A stretch of DNA of 5,716 nt from Deltaproteobacteria bacterium (GTDB lineage Bacteria > Desulfobacterota_B > Binatia > UBA9968): assembly GCA_005879255.1 (NCBI GenBank), contig VBKY01000691.1:1-5716 (forward strand), in the 5' to 3' direction. This document shows, in pieces, positions 1-5,542 of the stretch. Below the pieces are notes generated by a model. That model searched no databases, was not told the DNA's origin, and saw nothing but the letters and a program-made list of their open reading frames with translations. The position numbers and the translations under genes are program-made. Each line of letters opens with the position of its first letter. Within the stretch, counting starts at the first letter, position 1.

Positions 1-14
1 AGGCTGAAAGGGTC

Positions 15-371
15 ATGGCCGAGAGCTCACTGTACCCGATCGTCGGCGATTTCCTCAAGCGAAAGCTCGGCTGTTTCTACGTCCAGGCGCGCCCGACGGT
101 GACGCGACACGGAGCCGTCGATGTTGTTGGGCTGCGCCAGAGTGCCGGCAAGTACGGCGGCAACGCTGAGGTTATCGCCGTCGAGGTCAAGGCCACTGGC
201 TCCGGATTCCTGAATTCTGCCGGCCAAGCTCTCGGGTATTCCGTGATGGCCGATCGTTGTTACCTGGCGATCAGCGGCGACGGTGTCGGAGAGGTCGAGA
301 GCGAGCTCGCGTCCCAGCTGAACATCGGCCTCATCGTCATCCGCTCCGGTCGGCGATGTGAGATTGTTTGA
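15..371 (+). CDS. Small PD-(D/E)XK nuclease-like protein
   Basis: This 118-residue protein carries the ordered residues of a PD-(D/E)XK nuclease core. D36 lies in a GAVDVVG strand, E57-V-K59 follows on the next strand, and a QxxxY motif (Q71, Y75) follows on a helix, as in RecB-like and Holliday-resolvase-like members. These residues normally bind a divalent metal and cut DNA. There is no other domain, signal peptide or membrane segment, so it is a minimal cytoplasmic nuclease domain. The ATG at 15 lies just after what may be the remains of an attC core box at the window edge. The stop overlaps the start of the zinc-ribbon gene by four bases (TTGA), suggesting translational coupling within one cassette. 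A role in phage or plasmid defence is inference. It could also be a DNA repair nuclease or a catalytically inactive relative. Confidence 0.75.
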   Translation: MAESSLYPIVGDFLKRKLGCFYVQARPTVTRHGAVDVVGLRQSAGKYGGNAEVIAVEVKATGSGFLNSAGQALGYSVMADRCYLAISGDGVGEVESELASQLNIGLIVIRSGRRCEIV

Positions 372-637
372 CGTCACCGCAGCATCGTCCGCTGAGAGCG
401 CAGAAGCTCACGCTCATCCGCCGGCTCCGTTTCGTCGAGTGCGTCGTATGCGGGACGCTTCGCTCTCGATCCGAGATGCTTAAGCAGGACAACAACGCGC
501 TTCGTGTGGCTGCACGAGCTAAGAAAGGATTTCGCTATCTCCTTTCCGGGCGGGCGCACGGTGGCCAGCAGCGCCGTTTCGTTTGCCCTGACTGCGTCCG
601 CGCACTCTCTGGGGCATACTGCGTGGCTCTGTCTTAA
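368..637 (+). CDS. Zinc-ribbon-like small protein
   Basis: This 89-residue basic protein has two CxxC pairs, C25/C28 (CVVC followed by G) and C73/C76 (CPDC), spaced as in a zinc ribbon, plus a lone C85. The stretch between is rich in Arg and Lys, which suits nucleic-acid binding. The start is a TTG at 368 overlapping the TGA of the nuclease gene (TTGA). The first in-frame ATG would remove the first cysteine pair, so the TTG start with coupled translation is preferred. The TAA stop at 635-637 lies inside the R'' box of the following attC, as is common in cassettes. I do not recognise the family. A partner role for the nuclease, for instance in DNA recognition, is inferred only from coupling and composition. 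Confidence 0.65.
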   Translation: MTSPQHRPLRAQKLTLIRRLRFVECVVCGTLRSRSEMLKQDNNALRVAARAKKGFRYLLSGRAHGGQQRRFVCPDCVRALSGAYCVALS

Positions 638-714
638 CAAGCCGTTTCACCTGACGTCGGGCCTCCGCTCCCTGCGGTCGCTCGGTCCGTCGCAGGTGAA
701 CGGCAGCGTTAGCC
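632..714 (+). other. attC recombination site 1 (83 bp)
   Basis: The site begins with an R''-like TCTTAAC (632-638) and ends with an R' box GTTAGCC (708-714). The arms 641-653 (GCCGTTTCACCTG) and 693-704 (CAGGTGAACGGC) pair over 12 bp with one extra T in the left arm. This matches the extrahelical bases that set strand choice for IntI recombinases. The interior holds a smaller hairpin, CCGC/GCGG, at about 665-677. The 83 bp length lies within the known attC range. Both core boxes deviate by one position from RYYYAAC/GTTRRRY. Confidence 0.85.
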
Positions 715-722
715 ACACGTAT

Positions 723-944
723 ATGACTTACGAGGAAGCCACGGCCAAAGTCATTCAACTTTCTCATGATAATGATGTCGTCACGGTTGTGCTCGAAATC
801 TCATCACTGTTATCCGAGCCGCTCGCCCCAGGCGGGCTTTACGTCATCGATAAACCTGAACAAGAGGTAATACAGCTCCACAAGTTAAAGGCAGCAGATG
901 GAAACGTCCTAACGTTCGAGAACTACGATCAGGGAGGGAAATGA
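723..944 (+). CDS. Cassette-encoded hypothetical protein, 73 aa
   Basis: I do not recognise this protein. The ATG at 723 is nine bases after the attC 1 core box. An upstream in-frame extension exists but would read through the attC hairpin, so it is not used. No strong Shine-Dalgarno sequence is visible, as in many cassettes whose first codon sits close to attC. The product is acidic to neutral. The N-terminal part looks helical (residues 1-15), followed by a hydrophobic stretch VVTVVLEISSLL (20-31). The C-terminal half looks strand-rich, with GGLYVIDK and a downstream VLTFENYD. There is no signal peptide or cysteine pair. The last codons and the TGA stop lie in the first unit of a short tandem repeat (934-967), so the original C-terminus may have been altered. 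Confidence 0.6.
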   Translation: MTYEEATAKVIQLSHDNDVVTVVLEISSLLSEPLAPGGLYVIDKPEQEVIQLHKLKAADGNVLTFENYDQGGK

Positions 945-967
945 GAGGGAAATGGAGAGGGAAATGG
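934..967 (+). repeat. Three tandem copies of GAGGGAAATGR
   Basis: Units start at 934, 945 and 957 and read GAGGGAAATGA, GAGAGGGAAATGGA-like and GAGGGAAATGG-like, with periods of 11 and 12 bases. The first unit encodes the stop of the preceding cassette gene. The last unit forms part of the left arm of the inverted-repeat element. Slippage or duplication of the element's end is a possible origin. Confidence 0.7.
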
Positions 968-1241
968 GGTCAGAGAACTATTTCGGCTGTAGGCGGACTG
1001 ATTGAAAACTAAAAAAGCACTCTGACCCCAATGATCCCTCTCCGTCTTCGGCCGGGTGTGTCTACCTGTGCGAAGAGGTGGCTGCCAAACCCTCAATTGC
1101 ACCGCGGTAATCATTGAAAATCTATCGGCGTCGAACTCAACCTTCACCCACTTGTCGATCGCTACCAAAACGCCACACTCAGCGCCGCTCCGCCGCTTTA
1201 CAATCCCTATAGCCGCAACTGACGCGCTACTCCGCGGTTTA
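945..1241. other. Non-coding part of cassette 2
   Basis: About 300 bases follow the cassette gene without a convincing coding region. The left third is the tandem-repeat and inverted-repeat element. The rest (1044-1241) has no clear Shine-Dalgarno plus start combination. A minus-strand frame stays open here from about 1168 down to 929, but its end merely reads through the repeat element. It may be decayed cassette sequence. Confidence 0.5.
954..1043. repeat. Inverted-repeat element (REP/MITE-like)
   Basis: The left arm 954-975 reads GGAGAGGGAAATGGGGTCAG and then AG. The right arm 1020-1043 is its near-perfect inverse (CTCTGACCCC, a few mismatched bases, then CCCTCTCC). About 44 bases lie between the arms. 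The GGGGTCAGAG/CTCTGACCCC core resembles palindromes I recall beside IS200-like REP-associated tyrosine transposases, but that link is from memory and low confidence. No transposase is encoded here, so any mobility would need help from elsewhere. The element lies between the cassette 2 gene and attC 2. It could also act as a transcription attenuator, though there is no U-tract. Confidence 0.65.
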
Positions 1242-1333
1242 GTCCAACACGTTTTATCCCCTGCCTCACTTCGGCGATTTCTTTGGAGGTTGATTGCCTC
1301 CAGGCTTCAGGGTTAAAACGCTATACGTTAGGC
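1242..1333 (+). other. attC recombination site 2 (92 bp)
   Basis: R'' GTCCAAC (1242-1248) fits RYYYAAC exactly, and R' GTTAGGC (1327-1333) fits GTTRRRY. The arms CGTTTTA (1250-1256) and TAAAACG (1314-1320) pair, followed inward by CCCTG (1259-1263) with CAGGG (1308-1312). Between the two paired blocks TC stands opposite a single T, leaving an unpaired base. An internal GGAGG/CCTCC hairpin lies in the loop at about 1285-1302. Confidence 0.85.
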
Positions 1334-1339
1334 AGAAAT

Positions 1340-1861
1340 ATGGACACTAAGCTTCCAACTAAGTCCTCCGAACTTTTGCAAGCAGCGATCAAAGGAACGA
1401 TTTCAGCGATTCCGGTCGTGGGGGGCCTCATTGCCGAACTCGGTAGCTGTTTAGTTAGTCCACTAGACAAACGAAAACGAGAGTGGTGCGACGAAGTTGA
1501 AAAAGCTCTTCAAATTCTCAGATCGCAGTATCACAAACTTCCAGAGGCTCTCGCAGAAGATCCTGCGTTCGTAACCGCCTTGCTCAAAGCAACTGCGACT
1601 GCGTTAGCTACACATAGAAAAGAGAAATGGGTTTTGCTCCGGCATTTCCTGGTCAGTGTAGGTTCCAGAGCTATTCCTGATGAAGAAATGCAACACGCGC
1701 TTATTAGATTGCTCGATGACCTTTCCATTGGGCACATAGAAGTTCTTCGCTTTCTCGAAGCAGACTACGGTCTTCTAAAAGCTAAAGAGACGTTAGAGGC
1801 CATTTACGGCCGTTATCACTATGAACACAAAGGTGAGCTTGATCGCATTACTTTTCGTTGA
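1340..1861 (+). CDS. Uncharacterised cassette protein, ended by in-frame TGA
   Basis: The ATG at 1340 is seven bases after the attC 2 core box. An upstream in-frame start exists but reads through attC and is rejected. The 173-residue product has an Ala/Gly/Pro hydrophobic patch, AAIKGTISAIPVVGGLIAEL, near residues 15-34. A charged helix with KRKREW follows, then a predicted all-helical middle with LATHRKEKWVLLRHFL. From memory, this layout of a PVVGG patch, a THxxEKxxxLR motif and an acidic helical segment matches a widespread family of uncharacterised bacterial proteins that normally ends in a winged-helix-like tail with a 'TxLGRxLL' signature. That tail is absent before the TGA at 1859-1861 but is encoded in the same frame just after it. 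The gene is therefore probably truncated or a pseudogene. Its A+T-richer composition differs from cassettes 1 and 4. Confidence 0.75.
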   Translation: MDTKLPTKSSELLQAAIKGTISAIPVVGGLIAELGSCLVSPLDKRKREWCDEVEKALQILRSQYHKLPEALAEDPAFVTALLKATATALATHRKEKWVLLRHFLVSVGSRAIPDEEMQHALIRLLDDLSIGHIEVLRFLEADYGLLKAKETLEAIYGRYHYEHKGELDRITFR

Positions 1862-2002
1862 ATTCTAGCGGACTTGTCTGCGAGGATGGTCATTCATCTC
1901 GGTGACATTGAAGACATGAATGAGTTTGCTTCCCGCCAAGAACGTCTACTCTTTACCGATTTAGGGCGGCAGCTTCTAAAACTACTTCGAGATCAGGAGT
2001 AG
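1862..2002 (+). pseudogene. In-frame continuation of the 1340 gene past TGA
   Basis: The frame that starts at 1340 continues directly after the TGA for 46 sense codons and ends at TAG 2000-2002. The translation is plausible protein: ILADLSARMVIHLGDIEDMN followed by a charged turn and FTDLGRQLLKLL. It resembles the last helix and wing of a small winged-helix domain. The simplest reading is one ancestral gene of about 220 codons with a single nonsense change (CGA or TGG to TGA would suffice). Reinitiation at ATG 1886 is conceivable, but no Shine-Dalgarno sequence precedes it. Readthrough or recoding is possible but unsupported. Confidence 0.65.
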
Positions 2003-2053
2003 TTGGGTTACGTCGATGCGGGGGTCTGCATTTGCAAGCGCGATGAAGAAGAG

Positions 2054-2116
2054 GCCTAAGAAAACGCTTCAGACTCATCGCCTAACGGCGACGGCTGAGC
2101 TTTGTGTTCGTTAGGC
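2054..2116 (+). other. attC recombination site 3 (63 bp)
   Basis: R' is GTTAGGC (2110-2116). The left end is GCCTAAG (2054-2060), which pairs with R' except at its last base, so R'' is degenerate. The arm GCTTCAG (2066-2072) pairs with CTGAGC (2095-2100) leaving one extra T. The tip is a clean hairpin, TCGCC (2078-2082) and GGCGA (2087-2091), with a TAAC loop. The length is close to that of classical short attC sites. Another GCCTAAC box lies at 2080-2086 inside the tip, but using it as R'' would give only 37 bp. Confidence 0.75.
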
Positions 2117-2206
2117 TCCCCATCTGGAGAGGAGGGCCCCAAGAAAAGGTCTTCGAGTCCTGATCGGACTGCCGGTTCCTAGATCACGCAGCGTTTGGAG
2201 AAATAC

Positions 2207-3103
2207 ATGACGTTTAATTCCCTCGACTTCGCCGACGACACGGCTTTCGAGCGCTTCGCTCTCGACCAGCTCGGGGCTCACCGTGTCCGGGTTGCCGAGC
2301 CAAAATACATCTACGGCAGGCGGGGCATCACGGGCAAGCTCGGCATGGCAGAGGAGGGAACACGGCTCCGCGAGGAGCTTCGCCATTCCCTGCGCCCGCT
2401 TGGGTTCGGTGCCGCGTACAAAGTGCTCGACATGCTGGTCGAGCACGTTCTGCGGGCTAAGCGCACAGTGACCGGTCGCTTGACGTTCCAACAGAAGAGG
2501 AAGGACCTCGCGGAGCGCCCGCGCACGCTGCCGATGCCGCTCGATGCCCGTCCGGAGCTGTGGGACCGTCTAGCGGCCCTTTACACTGCCTTGGGGAACG
2601 CTAGGGACGCGGTGACGCACCGGCGCTTCGAGGTGACACAACCAGGTGACCTCCAGATCTTCGACGACAGACGTCATCTCGTCGACACCATCGCAAGCGC
2701 CGAGAACGAATACTTCGCGGCAGCGGTCCACGCCGTGGCTGAGCTGGTTATCAACGCACGCGACGACAGCCGGCAAGCCAACATCGTCGCGTTTCATCTA
2801 AACGCACTGCAGTCGAGGCACGGCCTACCCCCGCTGCCCGCGACCGACCCGAACGCCCATCGCTGGCTCCTCGAAATAGATCTCATCGACCTCGATGACG
2901 GGCGCTTCCGGTTCGAGGCCGTGCGCGCAAGGGATATCATTGAGCACCAGCCGAAGCCTTCCTTGTGGGACCTTCGGCTTCACGCCGGCAGCCGAGTATT
3001 CGTCGGCCTCTGGGAGGAAGTGGCGGACCAGTCCGCGCCAGCGCTGGATTTCCATCCGGCAACGCCGCCTGTGTGGCTCTCGGAGGAGCTTCCCCCGGCC
3101 TGA
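2207..3103 (+). CDS. Cassette-encoded protein with HEPN-like RxxxxH segment, 298 aa
   Basis: The ATG at 2207 is preceded by GGAG (2197-2200) at six bases and is preferred over an upstream TTG at 2195. I do not recognise a full-length family. Residues 50-140 look all-helical: an amphipathic helix with AAYKVLDMLVEHVLR (69-83), then a helix ending ALYTALGNARDAVTHRR with R133-x4-H138. This spacing matches the RxxxxH motif of HEPN domains, which are often RNases or helical partners of toxins. The C-terminal part (from about 215) looks strand-rich, with LEIDLIDLDDGRFRFEAV and SRVFVGLWEEV. It has no signal peptide or membrane segment. The gene is markedly G+C-rich relative to cassette 3. The HEPN assignment is inference from a short motif and helix pattern. 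The leader 2117-2206 holds only a small AGTCC/GGACT hairpin. Confidence 0.8.
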   Translation: MTFNSLDFADDTAFERFALDQLGAHRVRVAEPKYIYGRRGITGKLGMAEEGTRLREELRHSLRPLGFGAAYKVLDMLVEHVLRAKRTVTGRLTFQQKRKDLAERPRTLPMPLDARPELWDRLAALYTALGNARDAVTHRRFEVTQPGDLQIFDDRRHLVDTIASAENEYFAAAVHAVAELVINARDDSRQANIVAFHLNALQSRHGLPPLPATDPNAHRWLLEIDLIDLDDGRFRFEAVRARDIIEHQPKPSLWDLRLHAGSRVFVGLWEEVADQSAPALDFHPATPPVWLSEELPPA

Positions 3104-3143
3104 GGGGGGCGCGTTTGAGCTTGGGAGGAAAACGAACAATTAC

Positions 3144-3233
3144 GTGGAGGTATCCTTCGCCATTGACGAGTCAGAGTTCAAAGAGGCACAACGCGTAGTG
3201 GAGATTATCTTTTGCGAACGCGACCCACTCTGA
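3144..3233 (+). pseudogene. Possible small coding remnant before array end
   Basis: A short open frame ends at TGA 3231-3233 and encodes a coding-like acidic tail, VEVSFAIDESEFKEAQRVV and a few more residues ending CERDPL. The only in-frame standard start near it is GTG 3144, whose nearest Shine-Dalgarno-like GGGAGG (3123-3128) is 15 bases away, which is too far. It may be the end of a lost gene or chance. It overlaps the candidate attC 4. Confidence 0.25.
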
Positions 3234-3241
3234 CGTTAGCC
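3161..3241 (+). other. Candidate attC 4 / end of cassette array
   Basis: A core-like GTTAGCC (3235-3241) is directly preceded by ACTCTGAC (3227-3234), which pairs exactly with GTCAGAGT (3170-3177). The 5' box would be a poor CATTGAC at 3161-3167. An alternative GCACAAC at 3186-3192 gives a 56-bp site with weaker pairing. The R' box matches those of the other sites, but the left half is not convincing. After it the sequence changes to the host-type gene cluster. Confidence 0.4.
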
Positions 3242-3317
3242 GAGTCGATGTATGCGGTCGTATCATGACATCGGGATCGAACAAATGGTTCCAACAGAGC
3301 TGATAGTAACCAAGTTC

Positions 3318-3325
3318 AAGGAGGG
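3318..3325 (+). promoter_or_regulatory. Strong ribosome binding site of cupin gene
   Basis: AAGGAGGG lies nine bases before ATG 3335 and fixes that start. No clear -35/-10 promoter pair was found in 3242-3317. Confidence 0.7.
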
Positions 3326-3334
3326 AGAAAGACA

Positions 3335-3784
3335 ATGACACTTCAATTACGTCGGGTAGTCACCGGACATGATGCCAACGGGCGCGCGGTCGTCAAGATC
3401 GACGAGGTTTCCAAAAATCTTGTCTCGGGCCGGCCGGGAGCGACGGCTTGTGTGGTCTGGACCACGGAATCTTTTCCGGTCAACAACACAGGTGACGCCG
3501 ACGAGGGACTGCGGCAGGTCGGTACGACATTGAACAACGGGACGGTTTTTCGCGTCGTCGAGTTTGGGCCCGGAGTGGCGCCGCGAAACCACCGGACGGA
3601 TTCCATCGATTACATGGAGCTCGATGACTCTGTCGTCCATCTAAAGGCGGGCGACGTGCTCGTGCAGCGCGGCACGATCCACAATTGGATCAATCGCGGC
3701 ACTCAGCCTTGTGTGATCGCTTTTGTCCTGATCGACGCCAAGCCGGTCGAGGTCGGCGGTAAGGTCCTAAATGCGCAAGGCTAG
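3335..3784 (+). CDS. Cupin-domain protein with shortened motif 1
   Basis: This 149-residue protein is a single-domain cupin. Motif 2 is clear: G106, the segment DVLVQRGTIHNWIN with H116 and N120, then a closing strand CVIAFVLIDA. The start of motif 1 is also visible at residues 84-93 (RNHRTDSIDY, with H86). In relatives I remember, the run after 'SIDY' continues with a strand holding a GE pair (about nine residues, roughly 'xxVxSGEID') before 'MELDD'. Here Y93 is followed at once by MELDDS, so the motif 1 glutamate and glycine appear missing by an in-frame deletion of about 27 bases. Metal binding may be impaired. Related cupins occur beside catabolic enzymes and may bind small organic acids. 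The gene precedes a ThDP enzyme in the same direction. Confidence 0.85.
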   Translation: MTLQLRRVVTGHDANGRAVVKIDEVSKNLVSGRPGATACVVWTTESFPVNNTGDADEGLRQVGTTLNNGTVFRVVEFGPGVAPRNHRTDSIDYMELDDSVVHLKAGDVLVQRGTIHNWINRGTQPCVIAFVLIDAKPVEVGGKVLNAQG

Positions 3785-3874: not shown

Positions 3875-5542
3875 ATGCCTATGATGACGGGCTCACGCTT
3901 CTTTGCCGAGGCCATGCAAGCCTATGGCGTCACCCATATTTTTTTCGTCCCCACGATGCTGCTGCCGGCTATGGCGGAGATGGAGGATATGAATATCCGG
4001 CGCGTGGTGACTCACGGCGAAAAGGCGGCGGCCTACATGGCCGACGGCTACGCGCGCGCCTCGCATAAGCCGGGAATCTGTATGGCGCAAAACATTGGCG
4101 GCGCTAACCTCGCTGCAGGATTGAGGGACGCCTACATGGCTTGCTCTCCCGTGATCGCGATCACCGGAGGTCCCGACTCGGATTCAATGTATCGTTACCT
4201 CTATCAGGAGGTCGAGGATTTCTCGATGTTCGATCCGGTGACGAAATTCAATGCCCGAATCGACAAACTGAGCCGCTTGCCGGACCTACTTAGACAAGCC
4301 TTCCGAGAGGCGACCACCGGAGCGCCCAGACCCGTGCACCTCGAGATGCGAGGAAGTCATGGACAGGTAACTGAAGAGGAAGGCAACCTCGAACTGATCG
4401 TCGAAGAACAGTACAAACAGTATCCCGCTTTCAGACCCGAGCCGGAAATGGAGCGGATTCGCGAAGCAGCCAAAGCGCTGACCAGCGCGCAAAAACCCGT
4501 CATCGTCGCCGGTGGCGGAGTGACCGCTTCACAAGCAGAGCCGGAGGTCGTGGAGCTTGCGGAGAAGCTATCGATCCCGGTGGCAACTTCACTCAACGGC
4601 AAGGGGACCATCTCCGATGACCATCCACTCGCTCTGGGAGTTGTCGGAACCTATTCCCGCCGGTGCGCCAACCAAGGCGTGGCCGAAGCAGAGCTAGTAT
4701 TTTTCATCGGCAGCCACACCGGCAGCCAGGTGACGAACAATTGGAAGATTCCACGGCCAGGTACAGCCGTTATTCAGTTGGATATTTCGCCAGCTGATCT
4801 GGGCCGAAACTATCCGAACCGCGTCAGTCTGTTGGGAGACGCCAAAGTGACTCTGCGACAATTGATCGAGCAGCTAAAACCGATAGAACCCAGGACAAGC
4901 TGGATAAGGCGGGCGCAGCAGCTGGTAAGTGAATGGCGTGAGGAAGTGGCGCCAGTGCGCAACTCCGACGCCGTGCCGATGAGGCCGGAACGGATTTGCA
5001 AAGAGATCACTGACTTTCTACCTTCTAATGCAGTCTTGGTCTCAGACACGGGCCACTCCGGCATCTGGACGGGCAGCATGATCGATTTTAAAAAGCCGGA
5101 ACAAAGATATATTCGTTGTGCCGGCTCCCTCGGATGGGCTTTCCCGGCATCTCTAGGAGTTAAATGCGCTCTTTCCGATAGACCGGTTTTATGTTTCACC
5201 GGCGACGGTGGTTTTTATTATCATCTGGCCGAGCTCGAGACTGCCGCTCGCTTCGGCATCAACGCTGTCATCGTCGTCAATGACAACCGCTCTCTCAATC
5301 AAGAGATCAGGTTGTTCGATGCCGCTTACGGCGGGCAGCAACGAGGCAAATCCCGTGAGATGTGGGTTTTCGAAGATATCAATTTGGCGAAAGTTGCGGA
5401 AGCGATGGGTTGCTTCAGCGTCCGAGTCGAGCGGCCAAGCGAGCTAAAAGGCGCGCTGGAGCGCGCCTTCGCCGCAAACAAGCCGGCGGTGGTCGATGTC
5501 GTAAGCGACATCAACGCGCTGGCCTCGCGGGCGTGGAGCTAG
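3875..5542 (+). CDS. Thiamine-diphosphate-dependent enzyme, acetolactate synthase-like
   Basis: This complete 555-residue protein has the three-domain layout of the acetolactate synthase/benzoylformate decarboxylase superfamily. The N-terminal pyrimidine-binding domain (about 1-170) contains the activating glutamate E49 in VVTHGEKAAAYMADGYAR. The central domain (about 193-330) has a VIVAGGGV strand and LDISPADLGRNYP. The C-terminal pyrophosphate domain (about 385-540) has GDGGF (443-447) and N469-D-N471, the GDG...N metal/ThDP motif. It would bind ThDP and Mg2+ in the cytoplasm and act on a 2-oxo acid or related carbonyl compound. Substrate specificity (decarboxylase, carboligase or lyase) cannot be read from sequence. 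It lacks the markers that would make a biosynthetic IlvB call safe, so no gene symbol is given. The neighbouring cupin and amidohydrolase point to a catabolic role. Confidence 0.92.
   Translation: MPMMTGSRFFAEAMQAYGVTHIFFVPTMLLPAMAEMEDMNIRRVVTHGEKAAAYMADGYARASHKPGICMAQNIGGANLAAGLRDAYMACSPVIAITGGPDSDSMYRYLYQEVEDFSMFDPVTKFNARIDKLSRLPDLLRQAFREATTGAPRPVHLEMRGSHGQVTEEEGNLELIVEEQYKQYPAFRPEPEMERIREAAKALTSAQKPVIVAGGGVTASQAEPEVVELAEKLSIPVATSLNGKGTISDDHPLALGVVGTYSRRCANQGVAEAELVFFIGSHTGSQVTNNWKIPRPGTAVIQLDISPADLGRNYPNRVSLLGDAKVTLRQLIEQLKPIEPRTSWIRRAQQLVSEWREEVAPVRNSDAVPMRPERICKEITDFLPSNAVLVSDTGHSGIWTGSMIDFKKPEQRYIRCAGSLGWAFPASLGVKCALSDRPVLCFTGDGGFYYHLAELETAARFGINAVIVVNDNRSLNQEIRLFDAAYGGQQRGKSREMWVFEDINLAKVAEAMGCFSVRVERPSELKGALERAFAANKPAVVDVVSDINALASRAWS

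Follow-up and report, generated by a model that had tools for sequence, protein, structure and literature searches.

The locus and its interpretation

The question raised by contig VBKY01000691.1, whose 5,716 nucleotides were analysed in full and are called the window here, is how several short genes of unlike base composition came to stand in a row, separated by hairpin-forming sequences, next to genes of ordinary metabolism. The row is short and made up of captured genes with integron recombination sites (attC) between them, and it adjoins ordinary metabolic genes. On balance, and with restrained confidence, we read it as a cluster of attC sites lacking integron integrases (CALIN), that is, what is left of a chromosomal array of integron cassettes, decaying and devoid of an integrase, which ends at a metabolic gene cluster. 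The GC contents of the four array genes (62, 48, 47 and 64%), followed by 59% for a cupin gene and 57% for a thiamine pyrophosphate (TPP) enzyme gene, agree with the first-pass annotation of this DNA, which had described short co-oriented genes of mixed base composition. The closest relatives of the TPP enzyme are encoded in the metagenome-assembled genome (MAG) DP_1 (83% identical) and in a groundwater MAG (76%), both labelled Deltaproteobacteria, and on the strength of the former the host is probably an uncultured bacterium of the class of DP_1.

Identification of the attC sites

The core box GTTAGSC, on which the first-pass annotation had relied, occurs five times on the two strands of the window against an expectation of 0.81, and a count of at least five was reached in none of 200 shuffles. 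Four of these copies lie on the forward strand, three of them closing the candidate forward-strand sites attC 1 (632-714, 83 bases, core box GTTAGCC at 708-714), attC 2 (1242-1333, 92 bases, GTTAGGC at 1327-1333) and attC 3 (2054-2116, 63 bases, GTTAGGC at 2110-2116). A scan for complementarity anchored on a RYYYAAC-like left box and a GTTRRRY-like right box returned these three places, with exactly these coordinates, as its top three on the forward strand of 1-3400, with scores of 14.2, 11.1 and 15.8 for attC 1, 2 and 3, respectively. Among 1000 dinucleotide shuffles of 1-3260, the best score was at least 15.8 in 6 and at least 14.2 in 36, while the third-best score was at least 11.1 in 12. 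Since chance-like places in the control plasmid R388 scored up to 13.4, with its true attC at 18.4 and 13.3, the scan alone is no proof of a site; on whole loci it gave many chance-like hits and was used only together with shuffles and for choosing training sites. An earlier, strict version had demanded too good a box match, returned only attC 2 in the window and was replaced by the anchored scan.

Two covariance models, both trained on sites outside the window and giving rough E-values, were then applied, a search of this kind being the check that the first-pass annotation had named for its three hairpins. Model R1 was built from 12 attC sites of 57-64 bases (alignment A4), 11 taken from three related-class genomes plus a single R388 site, and was run with filters off; an alignment made with MAFFT from sites differing in length (A3) had been dropped as its right arms were misaligned. 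Model R2 was built from 50 sites that R1 had found at E values up to 1 in 23 loci, including R1's own 12. Both models matched attC 1 at 631-714 (R1, 38.1 bits, E = 1.6e-9; R2, 45.7 bits, E = 7.3e-10) and attC 3 at 2054-2116 (R1, 23.3 bits, E = 2.8e-5; R2, 19.5 bits, E = 0.0012). Folding of the bottom-strand DNA gave z values of -4.02, -2.32 and -3.42 for attC 1, 2 and 3, compared to -5.42 and -1.71 for two R388 controls; folds as good or better came from 0, 5 and 0 of 200 shuffles, respectively. In attC 1 and attC 3, the bottom strand forms a hairpin in which the R and L boxes pair and one arm carries unpaired bases. Of the three attC proposed in the first-pass annotation, those at 632-714 and 2054-2116 were thus upheld by the scan, both models and the folds, and we regard them as well-supported attC by sequence, whereas the one at 1242-1333 proved weak under the models, as discussed below.

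Gene starts lie 8 bases after the attC 1 box, 6 bases after the attC 2 box and 90 bases after the attC 3 box. In attC 3, the left box (GCCTAAG, 2054-2060) is complementary at six of seven positions to the box that opens the same cassette (GTTAGGC, 1327-1333), which is what a formerly circular cassette would show. Within this site, another left-box-like sequence, GCCTAAC at 2080-2086, pairs perfectly with the core box at 2110-2116, and a shorter hairpin is possible there (opposite-strand R1 match at 2116-2080, E = 0.0075). The fourth forward-strand GTTAGCC (3235-3241) is isolated, no attC hairpin having been found around it. A candidate attC at 3099-3241, with arms at 3102-3115 and 3217-3230, was dropped (fold z of -0.44, no model match across the whole), and the shorter segment 3186-3241 had a fold z of 0.46 and only 6.1 bits with R2 (E = 1.8).

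No integrase in the window, and probable decay of the captured genes

No integron integrase was found in the window by tblastn (best E = 2.2; the positive control gave 2e-128), in keeping with the first-pass annotation of an array without a visible integrase. An integron integrase cuts the bottom-strand hairpin of attC at G/TTRRRY and so excises or inserts cassettes. By analogy with integrons generally, each cassette here would consist of a gene followed by its attC, whose hairpin could be cut at that position, with the integrase either lost in cis or acting in trans from a distance. With no integrase and probably no nearby promoter, the captured genes would be little used, and little-used genes would gather stops, frameshifts and deletions. 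Excerpts of PMC9668308 state that, among bacteria, CALINs are more numerous than intI-bearing integrons and that an integrase acting in trans can still mobilise CALIN cassettes.

Of the four array genes, two are disrupted here even though intact, nearly identical copies are known; these breaks are absent from the first-pass annotation and fit a silent, integrase-less array. The cassette 1 gene (15-637, forward strand), of a family of about 190-207 amino acids, is split by a one-base frameshift near 366-371 into two pieces (15-371 and 368-637), while its nearest relative, an intact protein of 201 amino acids, shares 97% identity with the first piece and runs on into the second. The cassette 3 gene (1340-2002, forward strand) is interrupted by a stop at 1859-1861, leaving an open-reading frame of 173 amino acids (1340-1861) where most of 41 relatives have about 230. 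The same frame continues past this stop, and 1886-2002 corresponds to the C-terminus of the relatives minus a 30-base in-frame deletion; one relative is 99% identical and intact. Genes broken here with near-identical intact copies elsewhere are a prediction of the idea that CALINs are degraded integrons.

Integrons in related genomes

Matches to an integron integrase at E values of at most 1e-60 were found in 40 of 148 genomes searched in the class of DP_1, 38 of the 148 being over the family cut-off. At an E value of at most 1e-3, R2 found 16 sites in DP_1 itself (G001), 20 in genome G002 and 14 in genome G070. In G070, which belongs to the same class, an integrase heads a run of 14 attC on its own strand (L056, 9534-19291), and the arms of these sites are nearly those of attC 1 in the window. 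By eye, the stretch after the end of this integrase (~10410-10620) seems to have a diverged second copy within the array (~17990-18200).

In DP_1, seven attC lie on a 12-kb contig (C42) and eight in the last 8 kb of another (C6), on one strand each, with one attC of these clusters also weakly matched on the opposite strand. Neither stretch had a tblastn match to the G070 integrase and neither contig had an integrase-family match, so integrase-less attC clusters are ordinary in the closest relative of the window, within the limits of a fragmented MAG. Interrupted or split integrase matches were also seen (L016, L015 and L017), one with a single TGA (G001:C244), one in two pieces (G001:C110) and one with a single TAG (G002:C162), indicating that integrases decay in these genomes too. 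The class is tentatively taken to be Binatia, and among the papers listed in a literature search on integrons in such bacteria, none dealt with them by title. The suggestion in the first-pass annotation that the array is the chromosomal end of a sedentary integron or a CALIN gains from these integrases and integrase-less clusters in the closest genomes, as it does from the two attC of three matched by independent models and from the chromosomal-looking flank.

Alternative explanations

It is very improbable that there is no integron here and that all the hairpins arose by chance in a GC-rich stretch. Both models do give weak matches in the TPP enzyme gene as well, which we took for chance (for R1, 4732-4775 with E = 0.041 and 4526-4556 with E = 0.07), and the chance-like scores on R388 point the same way, but the match of R1, which was trained elsewhere, speaks strongly against chance at attC 1, it also covers attC 3, and the five core boxes had no equal among the shuffles. 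A narrower version, which we consider unlikely, holds that only attC 1 and attC 3 are real, that the hairpin at 1242-1333 is due to chance and that cassettes 2 and 3 are one unit or that one of them is a chromosomal insertion; it would be compatible with a CALIN as well as with an integron extending leftwards. The hairpin at 1242-1333 is not among the 16 matches of R1 up to an E value of 10, and an anchored score of at least 11.1 is expected 0.46 times per shuffle. Even so, its left box agrees with RYYYAAC in seven of seven places, its fold was equalled in only 5 of 200 shuffles and a gene begins 6 bases past its core box, and because of box, fold and gene start we judge attC 2 a probable site.

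A possibility that we take seriously while doubting it is that a complete chromosomal integron extends beyond the contig edge, with the window as its far end and the integrase to the left. Such an integron would have an intI carrying the extra domain, attI and a promoter beside its array, and no integrase was found within the window. The window opens on AGGC (1-4, forward strand), perhaps the tail of a GTTAGGC core box of another attC outside the window, and the first gene starts 10 bases on, so that the array may continue leftwards. The integrase of G070 stands upstream of its attC and points in the same direction, integrase matches recur in the class, and assembly is complicated by attC repeats according to passages of PMC9024848. 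On the other side stand the two broken genes and the clusters of DP_1, which also sit on stretches without an integrase match, though nothing speaks directly against such an integron.

The CALIN reading itself has several observations weighing against it. The absence of an integrase holds for the window and not for what lies left of base 1, and the ratio of CALINs to integrons is only about 1 in the portion of PMC9024848 drawn on here. A sequencing error may account for the frameshift in cassette 1. With R2, attC 2 reached only 7.4 bits (E = 0.89), lower than five window matches taken for chance. The last gene of the row, encoding a HEPN-like protein, is followed by no attC (3099-3241, see above) and starts 90 bases from its own core box, so it may be no cassette. 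The gene families are also rare, that of cassette 1 being found in 4 of 148 genomes (E values of 9.3e-9 to 8.7e-4), that of cassette 3 in 0 of 3 and 1 of 395, and the HEPN-like family in 0 of 148 and 1 of 398; the two empty searches (0 of 148 and 0 of 3) ran without a positive control.

Products of the array genes

None of the array proteins had a match over cut-off in Pfam or NCBIfam, the best match in PADLOC had an E value of only 0.0068, and the sole library match of the cassette 3 protein was to a PHROG of unknown function (E = 2.5e-4). To this extent the cassette proteins are as unfamiliar as the first-pass annotation had held, except that one product looks HEPN-like and another has PD-(D/E)XK nuclease-like residues. 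The former is encoded by an intact gene (2207-3103, forward strand, 298 amino acids) that would be either the last cassette or the first flanking gene. R133 and H138, an R-x4-H motif, are invariant in 59 sequences of its family, and in 22 aligned sequences R is followed directly by D, H or N. This agrees with the HEPN motif rule given in passages of PMC3710099, R-x4-6-H with a polar residue next to R, in most cases N, D or H. The family has 83 homologues, called 'hypothetical protein' or unlabelled at source, with no Pfam match common to more than 2 of 59 members. A genome with a HEPN-like relative (G842) had no R2 match in 18 kb, with one place of 14.4 in our own scan. In the same genome, a distant HEPN-like relative (L100, 8313-10431) adjoins a gene for 312 amino acids, which we take to resemble the abortive-infection protein Abi_2.

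In the cassette 1 family, D36, E57-x-K59 and Q71 are invariant in 14 relatives and a CxxC...CxxC pair is present; by these signatures, the family may represent PD-(D/E)XK-type nucleases whose tail binds zinc, an assignment confirmed by no library, and no Pfam family matches more than 1 of the 14 sequences. Relatives of cassette 3 share an N-terminal IPVVGG stretch, and a structure model of this family (mean predicted local distance difference test score, pLDDT, of 73.6) returned nothing useful from the PDB (best E = 0.15). In genome G406, which has a cassette 3 relative, the 14 kb examined gave no R2 match. A pattern-limited search of viral contigs did not find the cassette 3 and HEPN-like families. 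Plasmids had no match to the DNA of 400-3330, to the first piece of cassette 1 or to the HEPN-like protein, and one weak match to the cassette 3 family, in Hymenobacter (31% over 58%).

We put forward, as a tentative and rather doubtful proposal, that these are cassette-borne conflict or defence genes, with HEPN-type RNase and PD-(D/E)XK-plus-zinc-finger families moved by the array of an uncultured class and decaying after loss of the integrase. The two families, as predicted here, are described by none of the libraries searched. While the system itself is already known, the gene families and the snapshot of decay are fresh. The locus adds an integron array, probably from an uncultured class with integrase matches in 40 of 148 genomes, and directs attention to a HEPN-like family with 83 homologues and no shared Pfam match.

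Other features and the chromosomal flank

The cassette 2 gene (723-944, forward strand) encodes 73 amino acids, starts 8 bases after attC 1 and has no match in Pfam or NCBIfam. Directly after it lies an inverted repeat of about 90 bases (953-1042), GGGGTCAGAG...CTCTGACCCC (966-1029) extended by GGAGAGGGA...TCCCTCTCC, which resembles a miniature inverted-repeat element; none is expected in shuffles, and the core (966-1029) was not found in G001, G002 or G070. Rfam had no matches in the window at gathering scores.

Beyond the array, the forward strand encodes a cupin-domain protein (3335-3784; matched by Cupin_2 at E = 1.8e-4, short of the cut-off) and a TPP enzyme that library matches assign to the acetolactate-synthase kind (3875-5542), and both flanking genes look chromosomal. 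The stretches around the TPP enzymes of DP_1 and the groundwater MAG had no match to the cupin or the array genes, and the five loci with relatives of this enzyme (L001-L005) had no attC at an E value of at most 0.1. Among these loci, only L003 had cupin matches (27-30% identity), directly downstream of the enzyme, whereas the cupin of the window lies upstream.

Comparison with known systems

According to passages of PMC3710099, integron cassettes are known to carry HEPN proteins of the family of PDB 3jrt, which the HEPN-like protein of the window resembles in having R-x4-H and standing beside attC sites. The likeness is one of motif and setting, with a putative cassette status, and unlike that family the protein had no sequence match to solved structures at E values up to 1. 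CALINs are defined by at least two attC in the portion of PMC9024848 used here, and by spacing of less than 4 kb in excerpts of PMC9668308. The window resembles them in its two attC less than 4 kb apart, matched by R1 and R2 at 631-714 and 2054-2116, its short co-oriented genes and the lack of an integrase seen within it; it differs from a clear-cut CALIN in that this lack can be checked only inside the window and in that one of its sites is weak. With the integron of G070, attC 1 shares the arm layout and nearly the same arms (AACAAGCCG.T.CACCTGAC / AGGTGA.CGGC), while attC 2 and 3 differ from the G070 sites, and the integrase that accompanies 14 attC in the G070 stretch examined has no counterpart seen in the window.

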